Source of the DNA: Gautieria morchelliformis
Taxonomy: Eukaryota; Basidiomycota; Agaricomycetes; Gomphales; Gomphaceae
DNA length: 64,000 nucleotides
Assembly: GCA_015179125.1 (NCBI GenBank)
Contig: WHVA01000076.1
Span: 62,001-126,000 of the forward strand
Direction of reading: 5' to 3'
The position numbers and the translations under genes were made by a program. Positions 2,602 to 59,341 of the stretch are shown here, piece after piece. The notes below the pieces were generated by a model. That model was not told the DNA's origin, did not search any database, and saw only the letters and a list, made by a program, of their open reading frames with translations. Position 1 is the first letter of the stretch. Every line of letters begins with the position of its first letter.

Positions 2602-3538
2602 CTAGTGGCGTCTGGGGAGGTCGTGTGGCTTGCTCACCCCCTGAAGCTCTAGATAGCTGTCTAGGGCTTCAAGGTCCTTGCAGGACAACATGGGTTCCCA
2701 TGTCACGTCACCTAGGGTCCAACAGACCTGTTACTCCAGGTCCGTCAAGTTTATCCATCAATGTGCGATAATCTCGTCGACGAGCCACTCCTCGTCGTCA
2801 TTCGCTCCGAAGTCATAAAATGACTTGGCCTCACGACGAGGGAACAATTCATCGTTGTTAGCCTCGTATCGCCGTACGAGGCTTGAATGGAAGACCGGTG
2901 AAATGCGACGGCTTTTCAGCTTGTCAGGAAGATCAAGGGTCACCGTCGAGGCGTCGTTGTGAGCCTCGATGACGCGGTACGGTCCGATGTACCGCGGGAC
3001 TAGTTTTCTGGCTCTTCCTTTCGGGGGAGCTAGGTTTTGTGTTGAGAGGTAGACGCGGTCGTTGGCCGCGTACCTGTCGCTCACCATACATTTCTTGTTT
3101 GCATGAAACGTTTGCGTCACTCGATGCTCTATGATTGCATCGTGTGCCGCCATCAGGTTCCATTTTGTCTGATGTGCGAACCGGGCTACCCCCTTGAACG
3201 GGGTGTCCACGGCTATGGGGAGGTCTATCCGCGGCATATAGCCGTGGTTCAGCTCAAAAGGTGTGAACCCTGTGGTCGCACTGACGTTGCTGTTGAGGGC
3301 GACCTCAACCATTGGGCATTTCAATGCCCAATCCTTCTGATCGTCTCTGACGACCGCGCGCAATATCTGGCCGATCGAGCGGTTTGCCCGCTCGGTGGCT
3401 CCATCCATTTGGGGATGGAAGGCAGTTGACATGAGGAGCTTAGTCCCCATGAGTCGCTGTAGTTCACGCCAGAAGATCGACGTGAACTTCGAGTCTCTGT
3501 CCGAGATGATGGAGTCGGGAACTCCGTGGAGTCAAACG
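2602..3538 (-). pseudogene. Gypsy-1 integrase C-half and chromodomain
   Basis: Reads LHGVPDSIISDRDSKF, which contains the second catalytic Asp (SDRD), then AFHPQMDGATERANR with the catalytic Glu, the C-terminal IN domain (DRVYLSTQNL, LVPRYIGPY) and a GPY/F-like module. The ORF stops at 2758, but the same frame continues to 2602 through TGA (2758-2760) and TAA (2731-2733). That extension reads LGDVTWEP and CKDLEALDSYLELQGV, a chromodomain, so the element is a chromovirus. The N-terminal zinc-binding domain and the first catalytic Asp are absent: RNase H sequence joins directly to LHGVP near 3527-3540. It cannot encode a working integrase. Confidence 0.85.
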
Positions 3539-4066
3539 ACCACAGGCAGTCTGCTACCTTGTTCTCTACACCGTCGACATGAACGGTGTTGAAATTGAAC
3601 TGGGAGAGAAACTCCCACCATCTGACCTGGCGGTCAGATAGGCTCTTCTGGGTCTTGAAGTACTCGAGTCCTTTGTGGTCTGTGACGAGGGTGAACCTTC
3701 GCCCCAGCAGTTTGTCCTCCCATTTCATGAGAGCCTCGAGCATCGCGATCGTCTCGTGCTTGTGAGTCCGGTGGTGTTGCTGAGCAACGCTGAACTTCTT
3801 TGACAAGAAGCCGACAGGTCAACAGGTTTTCCAGTCAGGACCTTGGCCGTAGACCACACCGACGCCGGCTTTCGACCCGTAGGTGATCACCCAGATCGGC
3901 TCTGGGCACCTTGCGTCTACTGGACGCAGGATCGGGGCCTTACAGGCCAACGCCTTAATGCTTTGCCAGCATTTGTCTAGTAGTGGAGTCCATTCGAATG
4001 GACGGTTATTACGCGCACAGCCTGATAGTGGGGTGGTATATGCGCTAACATCTGGCATGTAGTGTG
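3539..4066 (-). pseudogene. Gypsy-1 RNase H segment
   Basis: Continues pol after the hAT-type insertion. It reads YLAHYMPDVSAYTTPLSG, then the RNase H start, LGRRFTLVTDHKGLEYF and WEFLSQFNFNTVHVDGVENK. A TGA at 3819-3821 stands where related elements have Arg (DWKTC-stop-PVGFLSKKF). The reading frame ends at VADCL, where pol is deleted through to the middle of integrase. It is non-functional. Confidence 0.8.
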
Positions 4067-4074
4067 CCAGATAC

Positions 4075-5244
4075 CAGGGCTGTCCACGAGTCAACCTGCA
4101 GGTTACCTGGACTTGGACTCGCAGGTTTGCCAGCTTCCAGAAGTGGAACCTGGACTTGACCTGAGTTTTTCTGCAGGTTGACTTGGACCCACAGGTTAAA
4201 CCTGCGGGTGACTTGCAGTGACTTGCCAGATTATTCTGAGCTGACTCATCCTGTGCGAGTGCATGACACGTCTCCTCCCGTGGGGATGGGGGTGAGCTAT
4301 TTCACACATCCTTACATCCTATTTTGACCATGCTCCTCTAGCAACATCCACAGATGTCGAACGTGCATTCAGTCAGGGCCGACTGACTGTATTGTTAGCA
4401 ACTAGGGGCTATGGCAGGGAAGGTTCGGTAGAGTTCTTAGAAAGCTAGAATCAAATATACTCTCTCAGTGAATTTATTGTCACTAATATATTAATACAAT
4501 ACCTAGAATCAAATATACTACATGATTTTCAGTCAACATGCTATGTAAATATGAAAGATACTACTCGCCTCTCTCAGTGAATTTATTGTCACTGAGAGAG
4601 GAGTGTAATCCTGTCTCAGAAGGCATATACTTGCACCCGGCCCTTTAGCGCCCAAGGGCTCGCGCGTCGAAGTCATTTCAAACTCCGCTGGGTGCAGCCG
4701 CCTATGAAAATAGAAATAACAGAATGGAATGGAGAGATAGGGAGTGACTAGAAAATTTCGAAAATAAGCAGAGAAGTGGATGCATAGTACAAGAACAGTA
4801 TGAGAAAATATTGAAACACCACACAATAAATTGAATATATTATGCTTGATTTTGGTGCAGGAGCATAAATGCACCCAACATGTATCACGGATGCGTCGCT
4901 CTCTGAAGGAAGAGTCGACACGTGCCGGAACCATACTCAGCACATGGCTGTCATACAAAGGACTTGTTCCTGAGGAATGTGTTGTAGAGTTGCTGCATGC
5001 TAAGAGTAAGCATGTCAAGAAGGCTGTTGTGCAGAAGGAGGTAATAGTAGTTGAATGACATGAATTCTTGGAATGTAAGGCTTGCAGGTCTGCAAGTCAC
5101 CTGCGGAATTCCAAAGGCCAAACCTGGACTTGGCAGGTTTTTAGGCGCCGGGTCACCTGGACTTGTGGGAGTTGGATCTGCAGGGTAAAATCACAGGTTG
5201 AACTGCGAGTCACCTGCAGGAACCTGGACTCGTGGACAGCCCTG
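4075..5244 (+). mobile_element. Non-autonomous hAT-type transposon nested in Gypsy-1 pol
   Basis: A 1170-bp insertion bounded by 18-bp perfect terminal inverted repeats, CAGGGCTGTCCACGAGTC, and an exact 8-bp target duplication CCAGATAC (4067-4074 and 5245-5252). Both are hAT hallmarks. Removing it rejoins pol at LVQYLA-HYMPD. Each end has many subterminal copies of ACCTGCAGG/AACCTGGACTTG-like motifs, the usual binding sites of hAT transposase. A plus-strand remnant of the C-terminal dimerisation domain remains at 4341-4385 (ATSTDVERAFSQGRL), and a second at 4860-5055 (STWLSYKGLVPEECVVELL). The remainder of the transposase is gone, so it depends on a helper element. Confidence 0.9.
4568..4601. 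repeat. 13-bp-stem hairpin inside the hAT element
   Basis: CCTCTCTCAGTGA and its exact complement are separated by 8 nt. Half of it (CTCTCAGTGAATTTATTG) also occurs at about 4459, where the complement arm is missing. It may be a small insertion footprint. Confidence 0.7.
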
Positions 5245-6223
5245 CCAGATACTGTACCAGCCTGAGGAAACGCTGGACGTCGTTGAACGTCCGTGGCCTG
5301 CGCCACTCGCAGATGCGTTGCATCTTGGCCTCATCGGCATGTACCCCTCGGCCATCGATGATATGGCCGAGACACTCCATTTGGATGGAATAGAGGTCCA
5401 CCTTTTTCTTGCTCAGAAAGAGGTGATTCTTCCTCAGTCTGTCAAAGACGATGTAGAGGTGCTCTTCATGCTCTTGTATTGAGAGCGAGAATATGAAGAT
5501 GTCGTCCATGTATACATGGACGAAGCGACCTATGCAGTTGCGGAAAATGGCTGTCATCAGCTGTTGGAATGTTGACGGGGCGTTACAGTCCCCCATCTGT
5601 ATCACCTTGCTCCTGAAGGTGCCAAGGATCGTGGCAAAGGCAGTCTTTGCTACGTGATCCAGATGGATCCGGATCTGCTCGTATGCTTCTGACATATCGA
5701 GTTTTGTTCGATACCGACAGCGAGCCATGTCGCTGCGAATGATATCCTGATCCGGGAAGGGCGTGACGTCCTTCACTGTGTTCTCGTTCTGCTGGCGCAG
5801 ATCGAAGATGGTTCGCAATGTACCGTTCTTCTTCGGCACACACAGCATGGGCACGGCCTGCTGCGCAACTGCTGGAATCCACCACTTTGCAGTGGTGTAT
5901 TGTTCTATCTTAGCCGACAATTCCTCTCGGAAGTGTTTGGGGCATTTCGATAGTCGATACTGCATGTGCTTGTTGGGATCGATGAGGTTGATCTCATGGT
6001 TGATCTCCCGTAGTGGCGGGAGTTCTAATGGAATTCCACTGACTAAGTCAGTGATTCGTTCCATCCATTCCTCGCGGAGGCGAGGATGGTCATCATCCAT
6101 GAGGATGATGGTGGTGGTTGGCTTAGAAGCCATTAGGCGCTGTGGGCATCTATTAGGTCCCGCGGCGCGTGGAACCACTTTCTCTTCCCCATCGCTTTCA
6201 CCGTTAGGTGAGAGCGCCTCTCC
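5245..6223 (-). pseudogene. Gypsy-1 reverse transcriptase
   Basis: Frame opens at about 6223 in a different phase from gag-protease. It encodes the RT leader LPPLREINHEINLIDP, then PMLCVPKKNGTLRTIFDLR, KLDMSEAYEQIRI, the fingers/palm region and the catalytic box VYMDDIFIF, followed by LGHIIDGRGVHADEAKM. The sequence is nearly complete through the palm and is interrupted only by the hAT insertion at its end. The YMDD core is intact, but the polyprotein it belonged to is broken on both sides. Confidence 0.85.
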
Positions 6224-6279
6224 CTACGGTTGTAGGGTGAGTTCGAGGACGAGTCGTCCCGCGACTCGTCCTCCTGGCT

Positions 6280-9200
6280 TCAATGAGCCAGGTTAGGCTT
6301 CAGTGCCTGGGTGATCCTGCTCACCCGTGGCCCCTTATCCTCGTTCATCGATCCATCATCGTCGAACGATACCTTGCCCGTGGGGATCACTTTGTTCCCC
6401 TTGCGGATCGTCCCTGGGCTCGAGAAGTCCAGGGTTATGCCGAATCTCCTTAGGAACGGTGTCCCTAAGATAGCGTCGTAATATTCGACGTTCGCTACGT
6501 CGAAATATTCGTCGTATGTCTCACGACCAAATTTGATGGTCGTGTTCATTCCATAGTTGATCGTGGAAGGGCTGCCTATGCAGGCTAGCTGCAGTGCGAT
6601 TGGCTGCTCCAGGGAGAATGTCTTCATCCCTGTAGCTCGCGTGAATTCGGGGGATAGCAGTACCCCTTCGCTGCCACTATCTAGCAGGCAGTGGGCTTTT
6701 ACGCCATTTATTTCCCAGTACCCCGATAGGGTACGGTTCTCACTGCGCGGGCGCGTTGGCCGCGTCCTGTGTTTGCTTCGGTGGTGATACACCGGCTCGG
6801 CCGCCTTCTCTGGCATGACCAGCGTGCGTGCCACCATGACTTTCGTGGCGGTTTCGTCCTCCGGCGCGAATCTGATCGCGCTGGACCTGTAGGTGGTGTT
6901 TTCCACCTCCTCGTCCCATTCATAGTATTGGGACGGCTCGGGGTCCCACTCTTCAGTGGGCGCGTCTCCATTGTCCGGAGTGTCGTTGGGTTGGGGATCA
7001 CCCTCCCCCTCTTCATCAATTTGATGGAGAGAATTTTGACCGAGATCCGTCTCCGGATCTTCGGTCTCCTCTTCGTGCCTCGCGGCCGCTGTCCTGATAC
7101 TGGACTTAAGCCGGGGGCATTCCGCCCTCTTGTGGCCAGGTTGGCCGCATTCGAAGCACGTGGTGCTGCTTTGGCTGCTGCTGGGCCGATCGTTAGGTCG
7201 GCCTGACGCCTTCGCCGGTGGGGCAGGTCGCGGGGACAACCCTGATGCTTGAGGCTGTTTAGCTTCAGGTGGGCGTCCAGCTTGTGCTGGGCATGGGCGC
7301 GGCAGCCGTTGTCCTGTTCCGCTTCTTGAGAACAGGCTGGGCCTGGTCAGGCCCGTTTGTGTCAACGGCTTGCTCCCTGTGAGCCGGGCAGTGCTTGCCG
7401 TTGCTGCTGCGCTTTCTGCGTGGCACATCCCCATGTTGTATTGGGATGCCTCCTCGATCATCCGGGCCGTCTTGAAGAGTTGCTCTATTGAGCTGCTCTT
7501 GGCATTATAGCCCTTTTTGAGGACTTCGTTGCGCAGGGTTTCGTGCAGCGCCAACACGAACCGTCTCCGGAACGTGTAATCATCTGGCGGCTGTATCATA
7601 CATGCCGCGTATTTCGTGAGCTCGTTCAGAATATCCTGAACGGTTTTCATGCCCTGCATGACCACGTCGAATTTATTCAATGCGTGATGGTACGTCAGTG
7701 TGTGCAGGAACCTTTTTTGAAGGCCTTGCATCACAGTTTCCAGCGTCCAGCTGCGGACCTGGCGATCGAAGCATTCTACATTTTGAAGGAACCACTCCTG
7801 GGCTTCGCTGGTGAGGCGAGTGCCCACGTAGCCAACCTGCATGTCTATGCTGGTTGGCCCTAGGAGGCAATTCAATTTCATCTATCGTAGGATGGCTGCC
7901 ACGAAGATTGCAAACTCTTCGAGGTCAGATCCCCCAGCATATGGCTCGGGGTGAGCCAATTGCACGCCGGCTTTCGCTAGCACAGACTTCTCCGGGTCTG
8001 TGTCCGCGGCGTCTGCTAACGCCACGCGGATCATCCGTGTGATCCCATCGTACGGCTCCATTGGTACGACGTCGGCCTGGTCAGGGATTCCCTGGCCTTC
8101 CGTTGGGGCCATGGATCGCTCGCACGGCTGTGACGCCGCACGGGGCAGGCTGTTGTATGCCCTGACGGGCCCAGGGTCGGGCTCGGGAGCATTTTGTGCT
8201 CTCGGTTCCGGGGGTGTTTTGTGCCTGGTGTCCCCGGTCAGTCCCGCGTTGCGGATCCGCAGCCTGCTGTTGTAGGCTGCACACGCCTGCCGTGCATCCT
8301 GTACGGCTCGCGTGAGCTGCTCATCGGGCAGCTGAGCGGTGTGGCTGTGGGCCACTGTTTCTTCAGCGTTCTTCACTAGTAGCTCGAGTGCCCGCGTGTG
8401 GCGGCGCGCAGCTGCGGCTTCTTTACGCTGCCAGTGTGCGACTTCGAGCTCTAAGCTCTCGGTCATCGTTTCAGAGTCAGGCTCTGAGGCGACCTGTTCC
8501 CTAACGATCTGTTGGATCGTCTTACGGCTGTCCGTTGGGGAAGCCGGTTGCTCTTGAGGTTCGTTCCTGAACCTTACGTCCTGTTTGACCGGGACGGCTG
8601 GCGGTGGCATTCGCTGCTTGTCCCGCTCCTTTCGGCACGGGTCTTCCGCGTCGTGACTGCGTTCGTTGGCTGCGGACTGTCACGAGCTTGGACGAGTTGT
8701 GTCGCGTTCCCCGCGTGGGCGGAGGGCTTTCTGGACGTCCTCTAGCGTGGCTGCGTCTTGCAGCCCGATCTCCTTCGCCTGGTGGAGTTCCTTGCCGATT
8801 GCCATTAGGGCGGCGGCGGCGTTGTCAAGCTGCGATGCCAGCTGATCGTGCTTGTGGCACGTCAGTGTGCTTCGGTGCAGCGCAGCCTGCACCTGTTTGT
8901 TCAGGGCCTCTGCCGTCTTGTGGTCGATGGCGTGAGCCCTCGAGCTCTTGCGACTAGAGCTCGAGTATTCCGAGCCCTGACTCTCGTCTGGGGCTCGTCT
9001 TTTTTGCCGTCATCCCCCTTCAGGGACGATCGTCGTCGCTCTACTTCGTGAGCGTCGGTTCGAGTCGTGGCTTTGTGCCCGCCTCGACGTTGTTGCTCTA
9101 CTGTCTGACGACGGTGAGACTTCTCTGTCCTTTCCTTTGTCTCTGGGCAGAGAGGAATGGGGGGGCGGCGCCGGTTCGTTGCCTGGCGTCGTCTCTTCCT

Positions 9201-16397: not shown

Positions 16398-19300
16398 TCA
16401 AGGCGCCTCATCAATAAATATTCTCTCCACGCCCGGCCAGTTTTCCTTCCCCGGCGAAAAGAACGCCTTCTCACGCTCGTCCCAATATTGTATCCTTTCA
16501 CCGCTTCGCAGTGGAGACCAGACCCTCTCCCCCGTGTCCCTATCCGTCTTCGCCTCGAACCACCGAGGCCTGTGCTCCGGAATCTCGCCCTCTTCACGTC
16601 TCCTACGCGTCGCACGCTGGAAGTCCTCCTGCATGCTCTTGAGCTCATTGGCACGGTCATACCGGCCCAGTTCGAACGCGCGCTGGTCTGGCCGCAGACG
16701 GCAGTCCGTGAACGGCAGATACGGCTTCAGCGTTTGCGCCGGGCAGTCATTCAGCGTGACCGCAAAAGGCGTGAGATTGAAAGGCGCCTTGGGTTTCTCG
16801 GTATTTCGCCAAAGCAGGATATATTCCGCGGTTGAGGGGGACGCCGGTCCACCCACGTTGATGTCGGGAAGGAGTGCGCTGCGTCCGTCCTCCGCTTTTC
16901 GGGCCACAAGTTGGCTGTTCCAGCGGCCGGCGATGTCGTAAGTGACGCAACCGGAGGCATCGAACACGTGACCACGGATCTCGAACGCGTCCTTTCCTCT
17001 CCAGCCACGGGGCTTGAAGGTCAAGACGCAGGTATCCTGCGTGCGATGGTTTGTGACCTAGTACAGCAAGGGGATAGATCAGCTAAATCTTGCAAAACCA
17101 AAGATATGACTTACAGTCATTTCGCCGTAGTGGTCGATGGTCGTCGATCCAAGAATGAAACCAGACACGTTCGTCGTAACTTTTTTCCACGTATAATGCT
17201 CATACTGTTCGTCACCGTCATCCGCCATCATGTCATGGGGTATCTTGAGCTCAGCATGCGCCACGCCTGTCGGTCGGATCTCAAACGATTTCCCCATGAA
17301 TTTGTTCTGAGCATCGACCTATAAGCGCGTAAATGAGTAACAGCATAACAAGTACACGAGAATTTGCGCAAGGCACCTCGCCAAAGTAGCGCCAGTTCGG
17401 TGCTTCAGCCCAACAAGCACTAATCGGTGGATGGTGGGAAACTTGTTCCGAGTAATACCGATACATCTTGTCGAGTCGAACATACTCAAAGGTCTCACCC
17501 TGTAAAAAAATCAAACTACATGCCGTACGACTGCCTGACACACTTACCAACATGGGGTTGAATGGCTTTGCAATGCGACCAATCGTGCTAGAATAATTGG
17601 ACATGGCAAAAGCAGCAACGTATGCAATTCTCCTGTGCGGATCTCGCTCGGCCACTGCCGCATCCACTGCTAGGGCGTCAGTAATTAGTGTAGATATGAG
17701 CAACCGAGACCTACAACACTCTGAAAACTCCATGTCCTCGGCCTGCACAGTATTAAGATTACAGGCCAATGGAAAAGAAAGTCGCCACACTCACCATCCG
17801 CTGTAGCATGCTAGTTGGCTCATTGAAGTAGACTGGAAAGCTAATCTTGGTTAGGTCCTTCCCAATGCTACCCTTCAGCACCTGCCAGAGACTAGTGCTC
17901 GGTCTGTCGTCGCTCTCGATTGGAAGTCTATCGCGCAAACAGGCATAACCTTGAAAGGGATTCGACTTTTCAGGAAGTGCACGTAGAGACACTGGCGAAA
18001 CGGGCGATTTAAGGGGCTCGCTGACGGTAAGGTTGGGGAGATGGTTAAATTCGATCGCGTCAAAAAACTCGTCTTCTTCGTCCGTGTCGACCTCGTCCGT
18101 GTCGGGACTACGAGGAGGCTGTGCATCATCTGAGACTGGGAAGAAAGTCGTCGCATCCAAGCGCGGCCGATCGGGAGCGCGCGGCTGCTGGTCGACCAAC
18201 TCATGTGGCCAGGAAGCAGTGGGAGTCGATACTTCTGGGGTAGAAACGATGGGAAGTGGTGGGAGATCTCGTGTCGGTCTTTGGCGGATAGTTTGGGTTC
18301 CAGAGTCAGATATGTTAAGCATGCTTCGCCGCTTCGGCTTCGCACGTCCCCGTTTGCGAAGCTCACGTTCCAGAGCCTCGCCCTCACGGACAACAACGCT
18401 CAAGCTCTCTTCCCATATCGATGTACGATCCCGCTCTTTTTCGAGCTTCTCCTTGTACCATTCCTCACGCTCCTTTGCCATGCGAATGTACTCGCTCACG
18501 AGTTCTTGAAGTTGGGGCAACGATTCATTAAGAGCTTTTTCGACATCATTAGAGCGTTGCGAATCTGACGTAGGTGACGTAACAGCTGTCAACAGTCTGG
18601 ACGTCAGCTCTAGTTGTGCCATCGCCGTGTTGCCTTGCAAATCGATCGTGTCCGTGTGTGGTGGGGACCTTGCAGAACCAGAAGTTGAAGACGGAGCCAA
18701 AGAACGCGTATCCTCGGGGTCAGTACGTTCCCTGCTTGATACCCCTGTTTCTGCAGGGTCCGAGGTGTCATTTTCACCACTGGAGGCCATACTGCCACGT
18801 CGAGCACGGTGGGTACTCTTGCTGCGCGTTCTAAAACTCGATACATCCGATACACTCCCACCTGAGTTCACATGATCTTGGTAAACATCCAGCTCCCCAC
18901 CGGCGCGCGTTCGGTACCACTCGATGCTCTTTTTGATAGCGTGCGTCCACCGGGCAGCTTCGGCTGGGTGGTTGGCTTTCATGTACCACTTCTGGATTCC
19001 GGAATTAGATGGCGGCTGTGGTCCAAGGTGATGGTGTGCGCCCGGACGATGATGTGGAGTCGATTGGACCTCGAAACGTAGCTTCTCACCGGCACTTGAC
19101 GTTTTGAGTACGACAGACTTCATGGAGATAGACCCTCGACATGCCAAATTTTCATCATCTTGGTGCCTGTAATCTGTTGTCTGTGTGAGCAGCAAAGCAA
19201 CGAGGCACGTGAAAATAACTTGCATGACAGTACACCGTCTTTTAAAACAAACCATCGCGTATTGAATCCACGAGCGAGATTGGCATATTTGTTTAAGTAG

Positions 19301-20389
19301 CCTTTGAGCACGGGCGGTTCCCCGCTCAAAGGTGTCTCCATTAGCGTCTTGTCTTGATTTGTGACTGAGGAAATCGCATTAGTATGTCTTCCAGATGAGG
19401 TGTGGCGCACTAACATTGGCGTAAAAAAACCTTGACACGATCGTCTTTTCCCGCAGCATCAGCTACTGGGCGACCTCGCCGATCACGCACGAAAACGTCC
19501 GCTCCTGCCCGCACCGCCAGCTCAACAAGTCTCAAGTCTTTGCGTCGCGCTGCTTCGTGGAGCAATGTAGTCCCAGAAGCGTCGTCTACGTAGGAGAGAT
19601 CAAGGAGAGATGCTCGCGGTGAAGCGAGGTGGGTCAACAGGCTCGGGGGCGGTGGCGCGGTGCGCGGTGAAAGGATATAAGTACGAAGGAGAGAAATGAA
19701 TGATGCGCGGAATAAGGATTGTGAATCTAGGGATTTGAAGATTAAAGGCATGGCAGGATGCATTTAAACCAACTCACCCTGAATTATGTCTCGAATCTCT
19801 TTGGTTCTTGCTACCGCCTTTGCTGTTAACCCCTTAGCGTCGCGGGCCGTGTCATCGATTTCTTCTTGGTCAAGCAATAAGGCTACAACATCCGCTCTGC
19901 CAAGGCTAGCCGCGAGGTGGAGTGCGGTGCACTTGGACTCAGCGGGGTGGATAGCATTCGGGGATATTGAACGATGCTGTAGCAACAACTGTATAGTGTC
20001 GTCTAAATTACAATCAAAAATTATAAGTATTTTCTATTTGAAACCAGAACCAAACGCACATGAAGCACATCGTATGGCCAGGTGAAGCGCTGCGGCCCCT
20101 AATTGAACAGTGCTGTCGGCAGATTTGCTTCGGTCGCGGCTGATTTCGTTAAGGAAGGGATGGATGAGTGCCGGGTCACCTGATAGATGAGATGAAAGGA
20201 TGAGTGAGTCGTGAGTCGTAAGTATGCATTCACTGCGAGATTTACCACTTCGTAAAGCAGCTAGCAGCTTGACTTGATACAAGGGTTGCGACGCTGAAAG
20301 CCGTATCAATATGGAGTCTGGATAAAAAACATAAAAAACATACCAAAATCTGCAGTGGAGCCACTACTAGATGCAACCGGGGAAGGCAT
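16398..20389 (-). CDS. Oxysterol-binding protein homolog (ankyrin-PH-ORD, OSH1/OSH2-like)
   Basis: Twelve exons on minus: 20389-20344, 20317-20246, 20179-20060, 20002-19778, 19726-19415, 19364-19224, 19173-17795, 17742-17715, 17666-17548, 17499-17377, 17318-17115 and 17057-16398. Total 3429 nt, 1142 aa. Residues about 40-250 hold ankyrin repeats ([20 protein letters not shown]). A PH domain spans about 270-390 ([20 protein letters not shown]). A Ser-rich linker with an FFAT-like acidic [10 protein letters not shown] follows. The ORD begins near 735 and has the signature EQVSHHPPI at 832-840. The family moves sterols or phosphoinositides at membrane contacts. Intron 1 is only 26 nt and intron 6 is GC-AG (19223-19174); both are required to keep the conserved frame. 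Confidence 0.9.
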
Positions 20390-21507: not shown

Positions 21508-24483
21508 CTAGCCCCTGCCCGCTCCATTGCTTACCAGCAGTTGAACAACCCCATGATGACCCCCAGACTCTGCCGCCTGGAGCGCATTGCAATACTCGCC
21601 GCCTGGCACATTGACGTCCGCCCCCTTGTCCAGGAGCAGTTGAACAATGGCATAATGACCCCTTAATGAAGCCACCTGGAGTGCATTGCCATACTCCCCG
21701 CCTTGCGCACTGATGTCTGCTCCCTTCTCCAGGAGCAGCTGAACAATGGCATGATGGCCCTTTGAGGATGCCGCCTGGAGTGCATTGCCATACTGGCCAC
21801 CCTGTGCATTGACGTCTGCTCCCTTCTCCAGGAGCAGGCAAACAATCACATAATGACCCCATGATGATGCTGCCTGGAGCACATTGCCATAATGGCCGCC
21901 TCGCACATTTACATCAGCTCCCTTCTCCAGGAGGAGCTGAACAATGGCACCATTATCATCCCACGATGCCGCCTGGAGCGCGTTGCCATATGGGCCTTGC
22001 ACATTGATGTCTGCCCCCTTGTCCAGGAGCAGTTGAACAATGGCATGATGACCCCTTAATGAAGCCGCCTGGAGCGCATTGCCATACTCACTGCCTTGCA
22101 CACTGATGTCTGCTCCCTTCTCCAGGAGCAGCTGGACAATGGGGTGATGACCCTCTGACGATGCTGCCTGAAGCGCATTGCCATGCCGGCCACCTTGCAC
22201 ATTGATGTATGCTCCCTTCTCCAGGAGTAGCTGAACAATGCAATGATGACCCCCTGACGATGCCGCCTGGAGTGCATTTCCATACTCCCCACCTTGCACA
22301 TTGGCGTCTGCCCCCTTGTCCAGGAGCAGTTGAACAATGGCATGATGACCCCTTAACGAAGCCACCTGGAGTGCATTGCCATACTCCCCGCCTTGCACAC
22401 TGATGTCTGCTCCCTTCTCCAGGAGCAGCTGAACAATGGGATGGTGACCCCATGATGATGCTGCCTGGAGCGCATTGCCATACTGGCCACCTTGTGCATT
22501 GACATCTGCTCCCTTCTCCAGGAGCAGCTGAACAATTGGATGATGACCCCCTGATGATGCCACCTGAAGTGCATTGCCATACTGGCCGCCTTGCACATTG
22601 ATGTGTGCTCCCTTCTCCAGGAGCAGCTGAACAATGGGATAATGACCCCCTGATGATGCTGCCTGGAGCGCATTGCCATACTGGCCACCTTGTGCATTGA
22701 CATCTGCTCCCTTCTCCAGGAGCAGCTGAACAATTGGATGATGACCCCCTGATGATGCCACCTGAAGTGCATTGCCATACTGGCCGCCTTGCACATTGAT
22801 GTGTGCTCCCTTCTCCAGGAGCAGCTGAACAATGGGATAATGACCCCCTGATGATGCCGCCTGGAGTGCATTTCCATACTCCCCACCTAGCAAATTGGCA
22901 TCTGCTCCCTTGTCCAGGAGCAGTCGAACAATGGCATAATGACCCCTGAATGATGCTGCCTGGAGTGCATTCCCATACTGGCCACCTTGCGCATTCACAT
23001 CTGCTCCCTTGTCCAGGAGCAGCTGGACAATGGGATGATGACCCTCTGACGATGCCACCTGAAGTGCATTGCCATACCGGCCACCTTGCACATTGACATC
23101 TGCTCCCTTCTCCAGGAGCAGCTGAACAATGGGATGATGACCCCCTGATGATGCCACCTGGAGTGCATTGCCATACCAGCCGCCTTGCACATTGATGTCT
23201 GCTCCCTTCTCCAGGAGCAGCTGAACAATTGGATGATGACCCCCCAACAATGCTCCATAGAGTGCATTGCCATAACGGCTGCCTTGCGCATTGACATCTG
23301 CTCCCTTCTCCAGGAGCAGCTGAACAATGGGATGATGACCCCCTGATGATGCTGCCTGGAGTGCATTTCCATACTCCCCACCTTGCACATTGACGTCTGC
23401 TCTCTTGCCCAGGAGCAAGTGGACAATGAGATGATGACCCTCTGACGATGCCGCCTGGAGTGCATTGCCATACCGGCCACCTTGCACATTGATGTCTGCT
23501 CCCTTCTCCAGGAGCAGCTGAACAATGGCATGATGGCCCTTTGAGGATGCCGCCTGGAGCGCATCACAATACATGCCACCTTGTGCATTGACGTCTGCTC
23601 CCTTCTCCAGGAGCAGCTCAATTGTGGCATCATGACCCCATGATGATGCTGCCTGGAGTGCATTGCCATACTGGCCACCTTGTGCATTGACATCTGCTCC
23701 CTTCTCCAGGAGCAGCTGAACAATTGGATGATGACCCCCTGATGATGCTGCCTGAAGCGCATTGCCATACCGGCCACCTTGCACATTGACGCATGCTCCC
23801 TTCTCCAGGAGCAGCTGAACAATGTGATGATGACTCCCTAATGATGCTGCCTGGAGTGCATTTCCATACTCCCCACCTTGCACATTGACATCTGCTCTCT
23901 TGCCCAGGAGCAAGTGGACAATGAGATGATGACCCCCTGACGATGCTGCCTGGAGTGCATTGCCATACCGGCCGCCTTGCACATTGATGTCTGCTCCCTT
24001 CTCCAGGAGCAGCTGAACAATGGCATGATGGCCCTTTGAGGATGCTGCCTGGAGTGCATTGCCATACAAGCCACCTTGTGCATTGACGTCTGCTCTCTTC
24101 TCCAGGAGCAGCTCAATTGTGGCATCGTGACCCTTCAACGATGCCGCCTGGAGCGCATTGCCATACCAGCTGCCTTGCACACTGACATCTGCGCCTTTCT
24201 CCAGGAGCAGCCGGACAATGGCATGATGACCCTTTAACGATGCTGCCCGGAGTGCATTGCCACACTGCCCACCCCGTGCATTGACGTCCGCTCCCTTCTC
24301 CAGGAGCAGCTGAACAATGGCATTATGACCCTGGAATGATGCCGCCTGGAGCGCATTGCCATACTTGCCGCCTTGCGCATTGACGTCCGCTCCATTCTCC
24401 AGAAGATCCCGGGATACTATTGCTAGCCCAGCCTCTGCCATGTAATGGATAGGACCACCCTTCTTCAACCATCGATTTCCGTG
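21508..24483 (-). repeat. Tandem 99-bp ankyrin-coding array (about 30 units)
   Basis: Head-to-tail 99-bp units coding the ankyrin repeats of the NLR. Most differ at only a few sites, and nearly every unit shares the string CTGGAGCAGC/CTCCAGGAGCAG around LLLEK. Because the unit length is a multiple of three, other frames also stay open for hundreds of bases; those are not genes. Copies 17-18 and 19-20 are essentially identical. Confidence 0.95.
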
Positions 24484-26975
24484 ATAAAGCTCGAGCCAAT
24501 TCGAGTACATCACACTTTCGGGTTGTAGAAGACCCATGATCAGTCGGCGCAAAGTCAAATCATAATCGTTAGCGGGTTGAGTATGGCGGATCCAGTAATC
24601 CGCCGCATATGCACATAGTGGATGTAATATCCATATATCTCGGCTCGTGATATGCTGGTTGAACTGCAGTAAGTAGGCCACGCATGTCTTGGCAATGAAC
24701 GTATTAGAGAGTTTCTCGTCGCAGTGATAGATCGACAGCTTGCAGTGGGTGCGGAGGCATTCCGAGACCAAATATTCACGGACGGAGAAATGGGCTAGTC
24801 TGAATTCTGTAAAATTTCCCTGGTCATCCTCAATATATTCAGGGTACCGTGTGTCGTCTTTGACTATAGTAATGGAGACCAGGCTGGAACACAGGGTCAG
24901 GATGTCCCGTGGGTCGTCAAAGCGCCGCTCTGGGTCAAATAGGGGTCCAGTCTTAGCATCAGGATCTGTAGCAAGAATCTCCACAGCCAGCCTTAGTGAA
25001 ACTGGATCGACTGAGAAAGCGAGCCATTGCAACAGTTTCAGAGCATACACTCTATTGCTCTCGTCGATGCCCAGGAGAATCCTATCGTAGGTCTCGTACA
25101 GGGTCTTTGGTAGATTCGTCAGTGCCATCTTGAGCTCGTGGGGGGATCTGCACTTTCGTAGGGCATCCAGCTGACAAACAACCCATCGAAACCTGGTAGT
25201 CCAGTTGGCAACGATCTTCGGAAAGGTCAAAAGACTACATACATTCCATGCGCTCCGTCAATCAACGTAGTCTTAATTGTTTCCTTCTTCTCTGCCGAGT
25301 ATTTACTGAGCTTGTTATCATCCTTAAGTGCTCTGGACACATAGACTCGGATGTCGCTGTCGACGAGACCTTCGTCCATAGATACCTGATGTGAAACCAA
25401 GTCCCGCAGTGTCTTCTCGATGTCTTGCTCGTATCGACTCGTTGCTAGAAGGCGTAATGTGTCAAAGTTCCATCCGTGGATTTCTTTGATCAGTTTCAGA
25501 AATCGATGTCGGTCTGGACATTCATCGAGAGCATCGAAGATAAGGTACACGTTCTTTTCGAAAGTGCCAAGGATGGACTTGAGCGTTGACTTGAGCTCCT
25601 CCAGAGATGGCGATTCTTGACCATTCTTTTTGTCAAATAGTTGGGCCAGGTAATTAAAGGTCGTGGCAGGGGTCTTGGTGATTTTCAAGGACAGCTGTTT
25701 GATCAGAGCACGAAGGAGGCTGGTTGGTTCTGTATCCTTGCTGCGAAAATCGAAATAAAAGAATGCGACTGCGAGTGAGGGGTCTGATATGCATTGATGA
25801 GAGATCTCTCTTATGATGGTAGAGCTTGATGAACGACGTTAGCATGGTACCTAGATATCCAAAGAAATGTGAATTGCTCACCATAAGATAGTCTTTCCGG
25901 CGCCAGCTGTGTGCTTATCAGCGGCGATCATAAAATAAGGAGAGAACATACCCTTGCCGTGAAGCCATAAAAACGACTCGGGCTGGCTTTTCCATTCATG
26001 GAAGCTTTCTCCCTGCAGAAACCACGAGCCGGTGTGTTCCTCCCACTCCCCAGCGGCATTCAAATGTTTCGACTCATAATCAGGAGCTGCCAACCACTTG
26101 TAGATATCCTGACGACGTTGGTTGTCATGCACCTCCAGCACCAAACGTCTGTCCGCATGATAAGGGATCATTGGCCATCGAGGGTAGGCATTTGAACGTA
26201 CGCTTGGTCAATGGATAAGGCCACAACAAGCTGCTGCTGGAACTTTTGCAGGTTGTCGAGAGTCTTGTTAACCTCGCCTTGCTTGAATGCATAGACCAGC
26301 GCTTCCTTGCGAGATGGGCGTACATTCTTCGTTTCTAACTTCTTCGAAAGGCGCTGCAGCTCGGCGTGACAATTCCTGAGAACCCGAGGTAAGTTCATGT
26401 GATCATCTCTGATTTCCGAGGCATTCCCTGCTGTTTTTCCGCCTTCGTCTGTTAAGGAATCACCCGTTGTCGCAGTGGGGGAGGGTATGCTGTCTGTGCG
26501 TTCACACTGAGTGTCGATCATGTTATTGCCTCCTTCGCGCTTGAAGTTCTTCAACAGGCGTTTTAAAAGACCCGTACGCTCACTTGGCATGGATTCATTG
26601 AGCCCATAGCCGGGTCGTGCGTCCTCGCTCTTTGTCACCTCAGGGGGCCCGCCTGTCATTTGATCGCCATGCGATATATCGAGCGCGGTCATCAAAGTCG
26701 GCAATCGAGAGAATGTTTGGGACTCGGCCACCATGAGCTTGTGGAGGTCAAGAAGGACCCCCTGTAGTCCGGAGACCTGGTCGCTGAGTCTGGTCATATC
26801 CTTGGACCCATTCTTGTATGCAACTCGATACGCGGAGCATTTGGTGATAACATCTTCGGTGGTCCGGACGACGGCGATGACACTCGCTGAGTGGGTTGAT
26901 GAGCATCGCAGTTAGAAGGAAGATAAATACAGCCGACTTGCCTGCTACTGCCAGACCTGCCAGAGCTTCAGCCAT
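21508..26975 (-). CDS. NLR/STAND protein: fungal N-terminal domain, NACHT, about 30 ankyrin repeats
   Basis: Six exons: 26975-26942, 26886-26202, 26148-25952, 25906-25882, 25824-25243 and 25192-21508; 5208 nt, 1735 aa. Residues 1-80 (MAEALAGLAVAASVIAVV, then VSGLQGVLLDLHKLM) resemble the HeLo-like/PigL_N domain of fungal STAND proteins. The NACHT starts with WFLQGESFHEWK and FLWLHGKAGAGKT (Walker A, about 303-311). Walker B is VYLIFDALDEC (406-416), sensor LLATSR. A winged-helix-like region ends in FTEFRLAHFSVREYL. From about residue 745 the C-terminus is 30 repeats of 33 residues, consensus YGNALQAASSGGHHPIVQLL. Family role: intracellular recognition triggering incompatibility or defence, here inferred. 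Intron 1 is GC-AG; the Walker A loop is split by introns. Confidence 0.9.
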
Positions 26976-39362: not shown

Positions 39363-39856
39363 TATAAGAGCAACCTAGGCAGACGCTCTACACTCAAGCA
39401 GCGAACTGGCGAAGGGGGATCCAAAGTAAGATAGAGAACTATATACAGGACACAGACATACCTGGTGAAGGGGGATCCAAAGAGAAAACTCTAAGGAACC
39501 CCTTTGCCACCTAACTACGACTATAAGTAAACTCGGGCATGCTAGCCCGATCACTGAATGCCTGAGTTACATAAGCAATCACACCAGCAATAACAGGGCT
39601 GGACGGATAAGGAAGGAATGATGTCGGAAGGGGCCAGAACAGGAAGGGAAATAAACGGAACACAAGACAGAAGGATGCTAAAGGCTAGGAGAAGCTCAAG
39701 GGCCACCAACAACACGCTGCGATAATGCAGTGTGCGATAATGCATGCGATAAAGCATGCGATAATGCACAGTGCGATAATGCATGCAATAAAGCATGCAA
39801 TAATGCGTGTGATAATGTGCACTGTGATAAAGCATGCAATTGGTGTTCCCTTGACA
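39363..39856 (-). repeat. Element B 3' LTR
   Basis: 494 bp, on minus TGTCAAGGGAAC to CCCTTATA-type end (GCTCTTATA). The U3 part (39720-39845) is a string of GATAATGCAT/GATAAAGCAT units. It carries the intron-like segment at 39461-39406 between duplicated acceptor tracts. Confidence 0.92.
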
Positions 39857-45855: not shown

Positions 45856-46735
45856 ATGCCCTTCCATGATGAGGTCTTGGAAGATGTCATTCATCATGGT
45901 TTGAAATGTCGCAGGACTGTCTGTGAGCCCAAAGAACATGACAAGGGGTTCAAAGAGGCGGTGATTAGTGCGGAATGCAGCCTTCCACTCATTGCCTCCT
46001 TTATCCGCACATTGTTGAAACCCCATCGCACATCTAGCTTGGTGAAGTATTTTGCTCCACGAAGCTGCGTGATGAGCTCGGAAATGATGGGAAGGGGGTA
46101 GCAGTTCTTCACTGTCATGGCATTGAGCACGCAATAATCCTGGACCAGTCGCAGTGACCCATCCTTCTTCTTGATGAAGAACACTGGGCTGGCCATAGGT
46201 GATTTCGAGGGGCGAATGCGACCAGTGCGCAGGTTTTCCTGCAGGAATTCATCCAGCTGCAACTGTTCACTGGGGGCAAGTGGGTAAACCTTGCATGCAG
46301 ATGGCTTGGCTCCTGGCTCGAGCTCAATTGCATGGTCCCATGTCCTGCGTTTGGGAAGTGAATCAAAGGATCTTTAGCGAAAACATCCTCGAAGTCACGG
46401 AGGTACGGAGGGATGAGTTCCTTTTCCGCTGGGGGTAGACTGCGAAGGGCCTTTTCCGCTACCTGCTGCGAAGTGATTGTGGTGGCTGCAATAATGGGTA
46501 CAGGTACATTGGGCATGGACACAGTCACAAACAGGCGGTTGCCTGGCTCCAGAAGGGGCTCAATGTCACCTGGCTGATCTTCTTCGGTGTCACCCTCTTC
46601 CTCTTCCACCATCTGTGGCAGAGGGCCCATGCGGCATGCATGTATCCTTGCCTCCTCTTTCCGCTCTTCCCGCAGTGTCGCTCTGCAGGTGTGACACTGT
46701 GCAGGGCATCGACTCAGTGTCACCTCCTGCATTCA
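45856..46735 (-). pseudogene. Element B RT N-half and linker
   Basis: On minus: VTLSRCPAQCHTCRATLREE, an acidic linker, LPPAEKELIPPYLRDFEDVF, then after a frameshift near 46350 LQENLRTGRIRPSKSPMASP, FFIKKKDGSLRLVQDY, YFTKLDVRWGFNNVRIKE and, after another shift, EWKAAFRTNHRLFEPLVMFF and FQTMMNDIFQDLIMEGHVCV, ending exactly at the 2.6-kb insertion. A TGA at 46733-46735 separates it from protease in the same frame. Confidence 0.85.
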
Positions 46736-47290
46736 CCAGTTAACCTCTGTGTTGTGCTCCCAGAGCCATGGATAGCCGAGGATCATCTTGTGCTTCCCAA
46801 GGTTCATAACGGCGAAGACAGCACGTTCAGAGTGGTCGCAGAATCGCAGGATGACATCAACAACATTGCGAATTGGTCCACCCTCATTGGGGGTGCCATC
46901 AACATTGTACACAGGGGCAGGGCGTGTCAGTGATCGCATAGTTAACTTCTCAGTGGCGACAAATTCACTATCTATAAACAACCCAGTTGCACCACTGTCA
47001 AGGAGTGCAGTCACTCCTTTGACCTCAGCTGTGTCTGTTGTCTGGATCTCTACCTTGAGGTTCAGCGAATTTGGAGAGGGAACAGATGCGACCACGAAGT
47101 GCTTGAAAAGGGCTCGCTCCCAATGCTTCAATCGTGGTGAAGGACTTTTTAGAATGTCGTTGGTTGATGTGTCTTTATCACTTGCTGCGCTCGACCCAGT
47201 TTCCGACACGTGAATTGTATCTTCAGTATCTGGGGCTATTGACAGTGCAGCAAAGCGATTGGACAGGGGCAGTGAGGGCACATCTCTCAC
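46733..47290 (-). CDS. Element B aspartic protease ORF
   Basis: 186 codons opening with GTG at 47290, which overlaps the gag stop as GTGA. It contains VEIQTTDTAEVKGVTALLDS followed by GATGLFID, an intact DSGATG active site, then the flap region (YNVDGTPNEGGPIRNVVDV) and ILGYPWLWEHNTEVNW, the normal end of a Gypsy protease. It is in one frame with the RT but separated by a TGA. No other domain. The protease fold itself looks undamaged. Confidence 0.75.
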   Translation of the reverse strand: MRDVPSLPLSNRFAALSIAPDTEDTIHVSETGSSAASDKDTSTNDILKSPSPRLKHWERALFKHFVVASVPSPNSLNLKVEIQTTDTAEVKGVTALLDSGATGLFIDSEFVATEKLTMRSLTRPAPVYNVDGTPNEGGPIRNVVDVILRFCDHSERAVFAVMNLGKHKMILGYPWLWEHNTEVNW

Positions 47291-48876
47291 TCGCTGCGTG
47301 ACACAAAATCCTCCACGTCATCCTTCTCAACCTCTTCCTCAGTGACATCTCGCACATCTGCAGCGACCATCCAGTGCTCCAGCAGCTCCTCATGCTCATC
47401 AGCTGTCATGTAGCAGACATTGTAGGCCTGGGGGCATTCTTGCATGAAATGTCCGACCTTCCCGCAGCACCGACAGGTGAGTGGCTGTGGGAATCGCTTT
47501 TTCGCAGCGTCCACATCCATCGGAGTGGGTCCAGAGGCAGTTGGAAGGGGTGTGGGCACTGGCATTATCGCTGGCCTCGAAGGGAGTTGACTGGTGAACC
47601 TGGTATGTGATTCACCTGCCTTGCGAAAAACTGGCGGTGGGGGAGGGCCACTGTTTGTCACCCTAGGTCCCTGGAACGCTTCGTTGGCCACATGCATGAG
47701 TGCAACTGTTCTCGCCGCTCCATACCATGCAGAAGGGTCATCGTCCTTTGGCCTGCCATCCAACATCAATGCAATGAGACTCTGGATCGCAGGTTCAAGA
47801 CCTCGATGGAACTTCATCACAATTGATCTACCATCTGTGTATTCAGCCTTCTCAACCAGCTCTTCGAACCCATCAATGTATTCGTTAACTGAACGCTTGC
47901 CCTGGTGGTACTGGCGCGATTCCAGTTGATTCATTGCATCGGTGGCCTCATGTAGGGGATAGAACTGCTGGAGGAATGCTTCAACGAAGTCCTTCCAGGT
48001 CGCATAGAGCGGCGTGCCATGCTTTGCTTCATGAGTGAATGCACGAGTGGCAAAAGTTGCAGCCCTCCCTGTGTTCATGAAGGACATCGCCCAAAGGATC
48101 TGCAACTGCTCGTCCGGGAAGTCGCTCACACACACACCCAGGTAGAGGCTGCATGACTGGATGTGCAAGGGCAACCCTGGCTGGTTGTGGAGATCACACT
48201 ACCACACAACTGACAAGGGGAAATCCAAAGTATGTATAAATGAACAGAGTATACAAGAGAGGGGATTCTCACCTGACAAGGGGAAATCCAAAGAGAAAAG
48301 TCTAAGGACCCCCAATGTCAGCAAGCCCGTATTATACTACGCTGCGCAGCCAGGGACAACACTTGGCACCCACCATCAACCCTGCATCCCCCTGACCTCC
48401 CTGACCCTTGATCAACCCTTGATGCCACCTATTACACGAGTCGCTTGATTTCCGACACTATTCCGAGAGCGGAAGTTGGAAATTGGAGTGGAACTGGCAA
48501 AGCAAACAGAACTGGTGGAAGGTCTCCCAGAAGCGGAATCATTTCCGAAAGCGGAGGCGGAGATGGAATCGGAACCGTAAGCGGAGTCGGAAATGGAGTC
48601 GGAACTGGAAATGGAAAACAGGGTGTCCCCTGACAGGGTGAAGTTGTGACCATTTGCACGATCGCCATCATACTCGGAAGGCTTTGCTGGCTCAGCTGTT
48701 TGCTTTGAGGAGGTGCGAACACGACTAGGGAGTCCAGCCATCAGCCCAGTGGTCATAGCCTGCAGGGTATTCAACCTCGTCTCCAGATCTTGTTTTTCCT
48801 GCCTCTCTCTCATCAACTCTTGCTCTATCGCCACCAAGCGGTCTAAAACTTCAGCAGCAGATGGCAAGTTGTCCAT
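47287..48876 (-). pseudogene. Element B gag, split by a solo LTR
   Basis: N-terminal part from ATG 48876: MDNLPSAAEVLDRLVAIEQE with a coiled coil (LMRERQEKQDLETRLNTLQ) to ANGHNFTL at about 48640. After the solo LTR it resumes as SCSLYLGVCVSDFPDEQLQI with a Ty3/Gypsy capsid (ATFATRAFTHEAKHGTPLYA, QYHQGKRSVNEYIDGFEEL) and a CCHC knuckle CRCCGKVGHFMQEC near 47430-47490. It ends VEDFVSRSE-stop at 47287. Apart from the LTR insertion both halves are open, so this gag was intact when the LTR arrived. Confidence 0.88.
48164..48635 (-). repeat. Solo LTR of family G inside element B gag
   Basis: 472 bp, on minus TGTCAGGGGACACCC to GTTGCCCTTGCA, matching the 5' LTR of element G (56725-57196), including both copies of the acceptor tract. 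TSD GGATG/GGGTG with one mismatch. The Ser-rich frames across it come from TTCCG/TCCGA-type repeats in the LTR and are not genes. Confidence 0.9.
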
Positions 48877-48994: not shown

Positions 48995-49477
48995 TATAAG
49001 GGCAACCTAGGCAGACGCTCTACACTCAAGCAGTGAACTGGCGAAGGGGGATCCAAAGTAAGATAGAGAACTATATACAGGACACAGACATACCTGGCGA
49101 AGGGGGATCCAAAGAGAAAACTCTAAGGAAACCCTTTGCCACCTAACTACAACTATAAGTAAACTCGGGCATGCTAGCCCGATCACCGAATGCCCGAGTT
49201 ACATAAGCAATCATGCCAGCGATAACAGGGCTGGATGGATAAGGAAGGAATGATGTCGGAAGGGGCCGGAACAGGAAGGGAAATAAATGGAACACGAGAC
49301 AGAAGGATGCCGAAGGCTAGGAGAAGTTCAGGGGCCACCAACAACATGCATGCGATAATGCACACTCCGATAAGGCATGCTGCGATAAAGCATGCGATAA
49401 TGCATGTGATAATGCACACTGTGATAAAGCATGCGATAATGCGTGCGATAAAGCATGCGATTGGTGTTCCCTTGACA
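48995..49477 (-). repeat. Element B 5' LTR
   Basis: 483 bp, matching 39363-39856 and the solo LTR at 35046-35540. Starts TGTCAAGGGAAC at 49477 on minus, ends CCCTTATA at 48995. Confidence 0.92.
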
Positions 49478-56724: not shown

Positions 56725-57196
56725 TGTCAGGGGACACCCTGATTTCCATTTCCAGTTCCGACTCCATTTCCGACTCCGCTTACGGTTCCGATTCCATCTC
56801 CGCCTCCGCTTTCGGAAATGATTCCGCTTCTGGGAGACCTTCCACCAGTTCTGTTTGCTTTGCCAGTTCCACTCCAATTTCCAACTTCCGCTCTCGGAAT
56901 AGTGTCGGAAATCAAGCGACTCGCGTAATAGGTGGCATCAAGGGTCGATCAAGGGTCAGGGAGGTCAGGGGGATGCAGGGTTGATGGTGGGTGCCAAGTG
57001 TTGTCCCTGGCTGCGCAGCGTAGTATAATACGGGCTCGCTGACATTGGGGGTCCTTAGACTTTTCTCTTTGGATTTCTCCTTGTCAGGTGAGAATCCCCT
57101 CTCTTGTATACTCTGTTCATTTATACATACTTTGGATTTCCCCTTGTCAGTTGTGTGGTAGTGTGATCCCCACAACCAGCCAGGGTTGCCCTTACA
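56725..57196 (+). repeat. Element G 5' LTR
   Basis: TGTCAGGGGACACCC to GTTGCCCTTACA. The first 180 bp are a TTCCGA/TTCCGC-type imperfect repeat. Contains the intron-like segment 57088-57150 (GTGAGA...CAG). Confidence 0.95.
57024..57030 (+). promoter_or_regulatory. TATA-like box in element G LTR
   Basis: TATAATA, about 60 bp upstream of the intron-like segment. It is conserved in the 3' LTR and the solo copy, so the segment would lie in the transcribed leader. Confidence 0.4.
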
Positions 57197-57382: not shown

Positions 57383-58556
57383 ATGGATCCGGATGATCGT
57401 CTTCGGAATATGGAGGAGGAATTGACGCGGAACCGGATGAAGACCGACGCGATTGAAACAGCCTTACAAATGATTTTGGCTAAATTAGATATTCCACAAA
57501 GTGGTGGAAATGCAATGCTGGATGAGCCGGATTTCGGAAAAGCAGAACTGGCGGAAGAGAGGATGTCCGCGAAGTTGGCAAAGGTCAAACCCGCAACTCC
57601 GGCGGACTTTGACGGAGATCAGGAGAAGGGACGCGCGTTCTTCAACACATGCGCATCTACTTCGCAATTGTCGGAGACCTCTTTCCAAACGACCAGGCTC
57701 GGATTCACTGGGCATTGTCCTTTTTCAAGTCGGATCGCGCAGCCCATTTTGCAAACAAGGTGATCCGACATGAAGCAAAGGGCAAGGGGAACTACTTCCG
57801 GGACTGGGACGCCTTCAAGAAAACATTTTCCGACCAGTTCTGCCCAAAAAATGAGCAGCTCACAGCCCTTACGAAGCTCGAGGGACCAGCTGGTACCAGG
57901 TCAAGGATCCAGTCGATGACTACATTGACCGCTTCCAGGAGCTCATCGACCTTGCGGAGTATGACGACGACAAGACGATAGTCATCAAATTCCAACGAGG
58001 GCTTGATCCGACACTCCAGAACCAAGTTGTGCTGCTTGGGGATGGAGCTCCGGATTTCGATGACCCGGAAGGGTGGTACCAAGCTGCGCGGAGGGTGTCC
58101 CAAAACAGGGAAGCAAATGAGGCCTTTGTGGAGACAAACCGGAACATGACACGCAGTTCCGCTCGTCCTACTCCACCTGTGCCAAAACCCGGAAGTGCAT
58201 TCATTCCCACACAGAAAATATTTCCAATGGTTGCTCCGCCTGCTCCTATTAGGAACCCTAGCCCCCCTCCCTCGAAGAGTGGACCTGCCCCGATGGATGT
58301 TGACCGCATGCGCAGAAAAGGCCATGGAACCATCACCTGCTTCCGATGCCGACAGCCAGGCCACTATGCCCGCGAGTGCCCCCAAGCCTTTGACATCTGG
58401 CTTATGACCACAGAGGAGAAACTTGAGCTCCTTCCAGAGTTCCTCGCACTCGCAGACATAAGCGGAGTGCCCACTGTGGAAGGAATTTCCAAAAATGCAG
58501 AACATGGTGCATCGGAAGTGGAAGATGCGCCGGATTTTGTGACACGCAGCGGGTGA
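57383..58556 (+). pseudogene. Element G gag with two frameshifts
   Basis: Starts MDPDDRLRNMEEELTRNRMK (coiled coil) at 57383. One base is lost or gained near 57645, after GRAFFNT, and again near 57885, after LTALTKLEG. The capsid reads through all three frames: IHWALSFFKSDRAAHFANKV, FRDWDAFKKTFSDQF, VKDPVDDYIDRFQELIDLAE. Then comes a Pro-rich linker with PAPMDVDRMRRKG and a CCHC knuckle CFRCRQPGHYAREC at about 58340-58380. Ends DAPDFVTRSG-TGA at 58556. Confidence 0.88.
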
Positions 58557-59305: not shown

Positions 59306-59341
59306 CTCGGCCCAGGAGACACTCTGGCGGAAGGGGAGCGC

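Follow-up and report, generated by a model that had tools for sequence, protein, structure and literature searches.

Has the long ankyrin array of a predicted fungal receptor been shaped by selection and recombination into a surface for recognition, or is the likeness of its units simply what a stable ankyrin fold demands? The question is raised by a gene on the minus strand of a 64,000-nucleotide stretch of Gautieria morchelliformis DNA (assembly GCA_015179125.1, contig WHVA01000076.1, positions 62,001 to 126,000), here called the window, in which the gene runs from position 26975 to 21508. Four properties of the gene are shown by the analysis: its architecture, the pattern of selection on its ankyrin units, the duplication of a block of these units and its mosaic origin. 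In our judgment, with a probability of about 0.75, it encodes an intracellular fungal NOD-like receptor (NLR) in which an ankyrin surface binds a protein trigger, an N-terminal bundle drives the response, and specificity is changed by selection and recombination.

The gene has six exons (Table 1), and when these are joined the reading frame runs without stops for 1735 amino acids; the splice sites were picked by eye from the reading frame and splice signals, and the gene model is a predicted one. Four of the five introns have GT-AG borders and intron 1 (26941-26887) has GC-AG; its position was matched by pattern in 15 of 20 paralogues fetched from the same genome (nine with a GC and six with a GT donor), the other five being unmatched by that pattern. 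Intron 3 (25951-25907) is 45 nt long, in frame and free of stops, so its removal is not dictated by the frame; taking it out gives the P-loop HGKAGAGKT. The Pfam matches span the exon joints and comprise NPHP3_N (PF24883, 136.2 bits, residues 279-444), an overlapping NACHT (PF05729, 44.9 bits against a cut-off of 26.7, with the P-loop GKAGAGKT intact) and, in the C-terminal array, ankyrin models including PF00023 and PF12796, also above cut-off. The stretch that holds the NACHT (26148-25243) has a median omega of 0.24 against the 20 paralogues and is under purifying selection. A preliminary description of this DNA had called the gene an NLR of the STAND class, and the presence of NACHT and C-terminal ankyrin array in one spliced frame, with Pfam matches above their cut-offs, bears this out at precisely the coordinates it gave. 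The evidence thus supports an intact-looking gene with a predicted NLR/STAND architecture, NACHT plus ankyrin superstructure.

Tandem Repeats Finder reports the array at 21553-24402 (period 99, 28.8 copies, 82% matches, score 3500), and by reading frame there are 29 units with one degenerate unit in front of them, so that the thirty units counted in the preliminary description are all there if the degenerate one is included. That description went too far in giving every unit exactly 33 residues, since 27 have 33 but unit 25 is 32 residues long, the last is 31 and the first is degenerate, and in calling the units almost identical: over the 27 regular units mean pairwise identity is 76.5% in amino acids (57.6-100%) and 83.7% in nucleotides (73.7-100%), and units 17 and 19 are the sole identical pair. 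The four motifs it quoted (SSGGHHPIV, SLRGHHAIV, SKGHHAIV and SWGHDATI) are found in the array. Variation is concentrated at a few positions, as it had said, but codons 10, 13, 17, 18, 21, 25, 30 and 32 are variable as well. An AlphaFold model of units 5-14, which served solely to confirm the fold, is of modest confidence (mean predicted local distance difference test, pLDDT, 63.9), and its best Foldseek match is the designed ankyrin repeat protein (DARPin) 6mol.

To find paralogues, the 2.5 kb of the gene that lie outside the repeats were compared with the genome it comes from (122 Mb, 1113 contigs). With 40 of 158 candidates scored, there are at least 54 matching pieces; counting this gene itself, at least 23 of them span 2,400 or more of the 2,501 query bases, with identities of 76-100%. 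A scan found ankyrin units in 19 of the 20 fetched paralogues, between 9 and 36 per array. In the aligned non-repeat codons 13 of the 20 have no stop and seven have one or two, a count of stop codons only. The paralogue in which the scan found no unit, L024 (C551:26300-35700), matches L022 at 96% identity outside the repeats, and the likeness ends at the array start. L035 (C189) and L034 (C896) are NLR copies 99.6-99.8% identical, alleles or a recent duplicate, which differ by an insertion of several kb within the ankyrin array of one copy. For DUF6533, a family taken as a mark of the Agaricomycetes, the same genome has 637 candidate places, and all 150 of those scored match it.

Selection was gauged from nonsynonymous (pN) and synonymous (pS) differences, counted per codon over all pairs of units within a locus. 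The 20 loci used are this gene and 19 paralogues; of 369 units scanned, 31 were dropped and 338 kept, all of them without stops and with good scores. Over the whole unit pN/pS is 0.48 (0.44 in this gene). At codon 3, pN over the array-wide pS is 1.73 (locus bootstrap 1.50-1.91), and at codon 14 it is 1.71 (1.49-1.89); pN also exceeds the codon's own pS at both (0.489 against 0.364 and 0.482 against 0.185). The ratio to the array-wide pS is above 1 in all 20 loci for codon 3 and in 19 for codon 14, and among the 33 codons of the unit codon 14 is in the top five in 20 loci and codon 3 in 19, with L038 the exception. More distant relatives within the genome supplied four further arrays, of 20, 7, 14 and 12 units; at least some of the post-NACHT region is shared, and two of the four (L001 and L005) are closely alike. 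When these arrays are pooled, codons 3 and 14 again rank highest (1.96 and 1.68). In the individual arrays codon 3 always ranks first or second, and codon 14 ranks first in two arrays, fourth in a third and ninth in the remaining one.

When the units are aligned with the sequences of designed ankyrin proteins from the PDB, their positions 3 and 14 fall, as we read the alignment, on DARPin positions 3 and 14. DARPin libraries are randomised at positions 2, 3, 5, 13, 14 and 33 (as described in the part of PMC8248824 used here), and it is by these varied residues of the concave face that DARPins bind (PMC8229355, likewise in part). The preliminary description had placed the variable positions in the exposed part of the unit, its expected site of ligand contact, and the alignment agrees with this. 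Thus, the arrays vary most at predicted surface positions, those expected to contact other molecules, and the counts support diversifying selection at few positions of the unit, 3 and 14, which would correspond to randomised binding positions of DARPins. We also considered a special bias toward NNG codons at these two sites, where the third base is G in 287 (codon 3) and 275 (codon 14) of the 338 units; it was rejected because codons 21 and 25 also mostly end in G (306 and 236 units), and the G third bases are therefore read as ordinary codon preference.

The array has also been rearranged. Units 16-18 occur again as units 18-20, and this level of block duplication is met by one of 1000 shuffles of unit order; such blocks occur at 10 or fewer of 1000 shuffles in five of the 20 arrays. 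Unit order is not colinear with that of L021, the closest paralogue at about 91%, nor between L036 and L037, and it is apparently partly colinear between L038 and L039 (92%). Linkage between third-position sites is low, with a mean r2 of 0.074 for this array and of 0.009 when 320 units from 18 loci are taken together; simulations without recombination give 0.25 (array) and 0.20 (family) at theta 0.6, a value calculated by hand for a pS of 0.28, and 0.11 and 0.08 at theta 2.4, the highest tried. Of three other arrays tested, L040 (0.081) and L027 (0.056) are also low, and L026 (0.128) lies above the theta 2.4 value; values of r2 could also be reduced by a star-like history or by recurrent mutation. 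The units look like a family-wide pool in which synonymous sites are little linked. The suggestion in the preliminary description that the array has been re-dealt by recombination is therefore upheld by block duplication, by an order unlike that of the closest paralogue and by low linkage.

Its companion suggestion, that the array is being homogenised, holds only weakly. Of 320 units, 159 have their nearest neighbour within their own locus, about eight times the 20.2 expected (the maximum of 1000 shuffles was 37), and 124 still do so when codons 3, 13, 14, 17 and 18 are excluded. Mean unit identity, however, is 83.7% within this locus and 81.9% to other loci. Homogenisation within the locus is thus weakly detectable, and as the main process it is not favoured.

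These figures bear on the view that the similarity of the units is no more than the scaffold constraint of a stable ankyrin consensus, in an old array that drifts at its surface with neither recombination nor diversifying selection. The scarcely higher identity within than between loci would fit such drift, as would the 15 of 20 arrays that have no block duplication at the level given above and the four-gamete share of 0.71 in this array, which simulations without recombination attain at theta 1.2. Against it stand the excess of pN at codons 3 and 14 across virtually all loci, the surplus of nearest units from the same locus, the block duplication in this array and synonymous-site r2 values far below those simulated without recombination at theta 0.6, and we regard it as unlikely.

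The gene as a whole is a mosaic of two paralogue clades, with its N-terminus and NACHT from one and its post-NACHT region from the other. In sliding comparisons it is, in the direction of the gene, 91-97% like L021 up to about 25,200 and 78-86% like it beyond, where L029, L030 and L038 are 86-93% like the gene. Maximum chi-squared tests with 20 parent pairs put the break between 25198 and 25059, and in each pair none of 2000 permutations reached the observed value. Since long arrays are hard to assemble and the break between the two clades is sharp, the array or the mosaic might be merged paralogues, an artefact of assembly; against this, the frame stays open throughout the 30 units and the 1735 residues, and the arrays of L027 and L040 are likewise long (36 and 35 units by scan), and we consider such an artefact quite improbable.

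Repeat-induced point mutation (RIP) has been proposed as a source of variation in conserved NLR repeats in Podospora (Dyrka et al. 2014; PMC4986451, in the part used here), and it might likewise diversify this array. With the caution that dinucleotide indices of the array partly reflect the repeated codons of its unit, TpA/ApT is 0.19 in the array against 0.63 in the window, so RIP products are scarce, and (CpA+TpG)/(ApC+GpT) is 2.82 against 1.33, so RIP targets are abundant. In addition, the hypervariable codons hold all four bases at positions 1 and 2. RIP was rejected as the source of the variation on these indices, which lack its signature, and we give it only the slightest chance of having acted here.

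At the N-terminus the best Pfam candidate is PF17111 (PigL_N), which is named Helo_like_N and regarded as HeLo-like in the part of PMC9815663 used here. The match in this gene falls below the curated cut-off (17.6 against 27.2 bits), so the N-terminus is classed as similar to, and not as a member of, the HeLo-like group. L028 reaches 27.7 bits, and PF17111 is the best N-terminal family in each of ten further paralogues (19.1-27.0 bits, E 3.4e-6 to 9.3e-4, all below cut-off). No HeLo or MLKL family matched in Pfam scans of this gene and of the paralogue N-termini, and amyloid motifs were not searched for. A single-sequence model of the N-terminus is helical with low confidence (pLDDT 42), and nothing beyond "helical" is drawn from it.

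By analogy with the families named below, which is the basis for the ligand binding, oligomerisation and cell death in this scheme, the open-ended ankyrin solenoid would bind a proteinaceous trigger through a surface made mainly of unit positions 3 and 14. Binding would release the NACHT switch and lead to oligomerisation, upon which the HeLo-like helical bundle at the N-terminus would signal, or itself execute, cell death or defence, most likely cell death. The trigger may be a fusion partner, a bacterium, a virus or an altered self protein. Specificity would shift in two ways, by diversifying selection at contact codons and by recombination, the latter comprising duplication of unit blocks, shuffling of unit segments and exchange between paralogues.

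Several points weigh against this scheme. The 20 loci include near-duplicates (L031, L035) and several copies with stops, the selection estimates are pairwise counts rather than a codon model, and unit pairs are not independent. The codon 14 ratio is only 0.98 in L026. Codon 18 has a ratio of 1.26 to the array-wide pS (1.14-1.38), and its pN of 0.355 is below its own pS of 0.418, which makes a third selected site doubtful. Among the 12 family members whose spliced N-termini were scanned, 11 have PF17111 matches below cut-off, and a six-frame genome search with that profile gave one weak place, on C152, outside the fetched loci. Finally, near-identical pairs keep their unit order (L034/L035 in units 1-10; L023/L031 over 9.4 kb at 99.1%); these two pairs, of about 99% identity or more and with matching units in order, speak against rapid turnover, and since order is lost at about 91%, turnover first becomes visible between about 1% and 9% divergence.

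Allorecognition would be one of several possible uses of such a receptor. That the gene is specifically a heterokaryon-incompatibility receptor, like HET-D, HET-E and HET-R of Podospora, is suggested by its evolution, which resembles that of the Podospora NWD genes in having similar repeats, shuffling within and between genes, and selection at contact positions (PMC4986451, in part). Repeat-number polymorphism and selection, however, are also described there for ankyrin (ANK) and tetratricopeptide NLRs, with no incompatibility role mentioned in the part of the paper used here; no HET domain matched in Pfam scans of this gene; and a family of more than 20 paralogues would fit a broad repertoire no less than it would fit a het locus. 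We therefore hold this narrower assignment to be rather doubtful. It is an equally tentative thought that the more than 20 NACHT-ankyrin paralogues act as a combinatorial receptor repertoire, in which short ankyrin segments and whole domains from a family-wide pool would be exchanged between dispersed loci and two codons per unit kept diverse. If so, the result would be comparable to somatic receptor diversification but brought about in the germ line, and about 60 positions per protein would set the specificity. Since one genome has more than 20 close paralogues and RIP has left no signature in the array, the family is a good system in which to study how a fungus makes receptor diversity.

Table 1. 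Features of the predicted NLR gene (window coordinates)
Feature	Coordinates	Strand	Basis or remark
Exons 1-6	26975-26942, 26886-26202, 26148-25952, 25906-25882, 25824-25243, 25192-21508	-	reading frame and splice signals
Introns 1-5	26941-26887, 26201-26149, 25951-25907, 25881-25825, 25242-25193	-	45-57 nt each
PF17111 similarity, residues 8-73	26702..26954	-	E 0.0026, 17.6 bits; split by GC-AG intron 26941-26887
NACHT, residues 300-482	25320..25970	-	PF05729, 44.9 bits; P-loop split by intron 25951-25907
Post-NACHT region, linked to the other paralogue clade	24457..25192	-	sliding identity, maximum chi-squared
Degenerate first ankyrin unit (GPIHYMAEAG...GADVNAQ)	24373..24456	-	read from translation
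Remaining 29 ankyrin units, each 99 nt except unit 25 (96 nt) and the short last unit	21511..24372	-	Tandem Repeats Finder and reading frame
Block duplication, units 16-18 again as 18-20 (offset 2 units)	22393..22887	-	mean identity 96.6% nt

Elsewhere in the window, adjoining minus-strand frames at 17759-19763 encode one ankyrin unit together with the beginning of an oxysterol-binding domain, and presumably resemble lipid-transfer proteins of the Osh1 type. Frames that read by eye as Ty3/gypsy-type gag, protease, reverse transcriptase and integrase lie at 46115-48174 (minus strand) and 58553-62262 (plus strand), and more retrotransposon-like frames (integrase end, reverse transcriptase and zinc-knuckle gag, again by eye) at 2758-8610 (minus strand). 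Two separate small arrays (39713-39840 and 49345-49461) have similar short motifs, TGCGATAATGCA or TGCGATAAAGCA. A similar 30-bp unit occurs in two copies each at 48545-48605, 56755-56825 and 62495-62555, in reversed orientation at the latter two places.

Comparison with systems already described places the gene among the fungal ANK NLRs, for which the phenomenon is already published (Dyrka et al. 2014; PMC4986451, here and below in the part used by us) and of which it is a further example. That study reports ankyrin repeats that are highly conserved, that differ in number from one Podospora strain to another and that have five positions under positive selection, all but one of them on the concave face. 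Its NACHT-ANK proteins (e.g., Podospora Pa_3_8560 and Pa_2_8180) likewise combine a NACHT with ankyrin repeats, and likewise have variable repeat number and few selected positions, mostly on the concave binding side; selection on binding-surface positions is present here at codons 3 and 14, as judged by pairwise counts. They differ in having PNP_UDP where our gene has HeLo-like similarity at the N-terminus and in arrays of 7 to above 16 units where ours has about 30; our gene, in addition, has many close paralogues in its genome. Mean unit identity here (76.5% in amino acids) is also below their criterion of >85% over at least 100 amino acids, applied via T-reks, and local blocks such as units 16-18 against 18-20 (96.6% in nucleotides) exceed the array mean. 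The Podospora NWD/HNWD family (HET-D, HET-E and HET-R) shares the reshuffling of repeats within and between paralogues and the selection at contact positions, but has a WD40 propeller and a HET domain in contrast to the ankyrin array here, and its role in allorecognition is known from genetics, whereas ours is a predicted receptor. With the HeLo-like and basidiomycete MLKL-like NLRs (PMC9815663, in part) the gene shares a weak PF17111 match and a predicted helical N-terminus. Beside these systems, the array adds to the cases where the ankyrin units of a fungal NLR appear to be under selection at positions that engineers chose for designed ankyrin binders.

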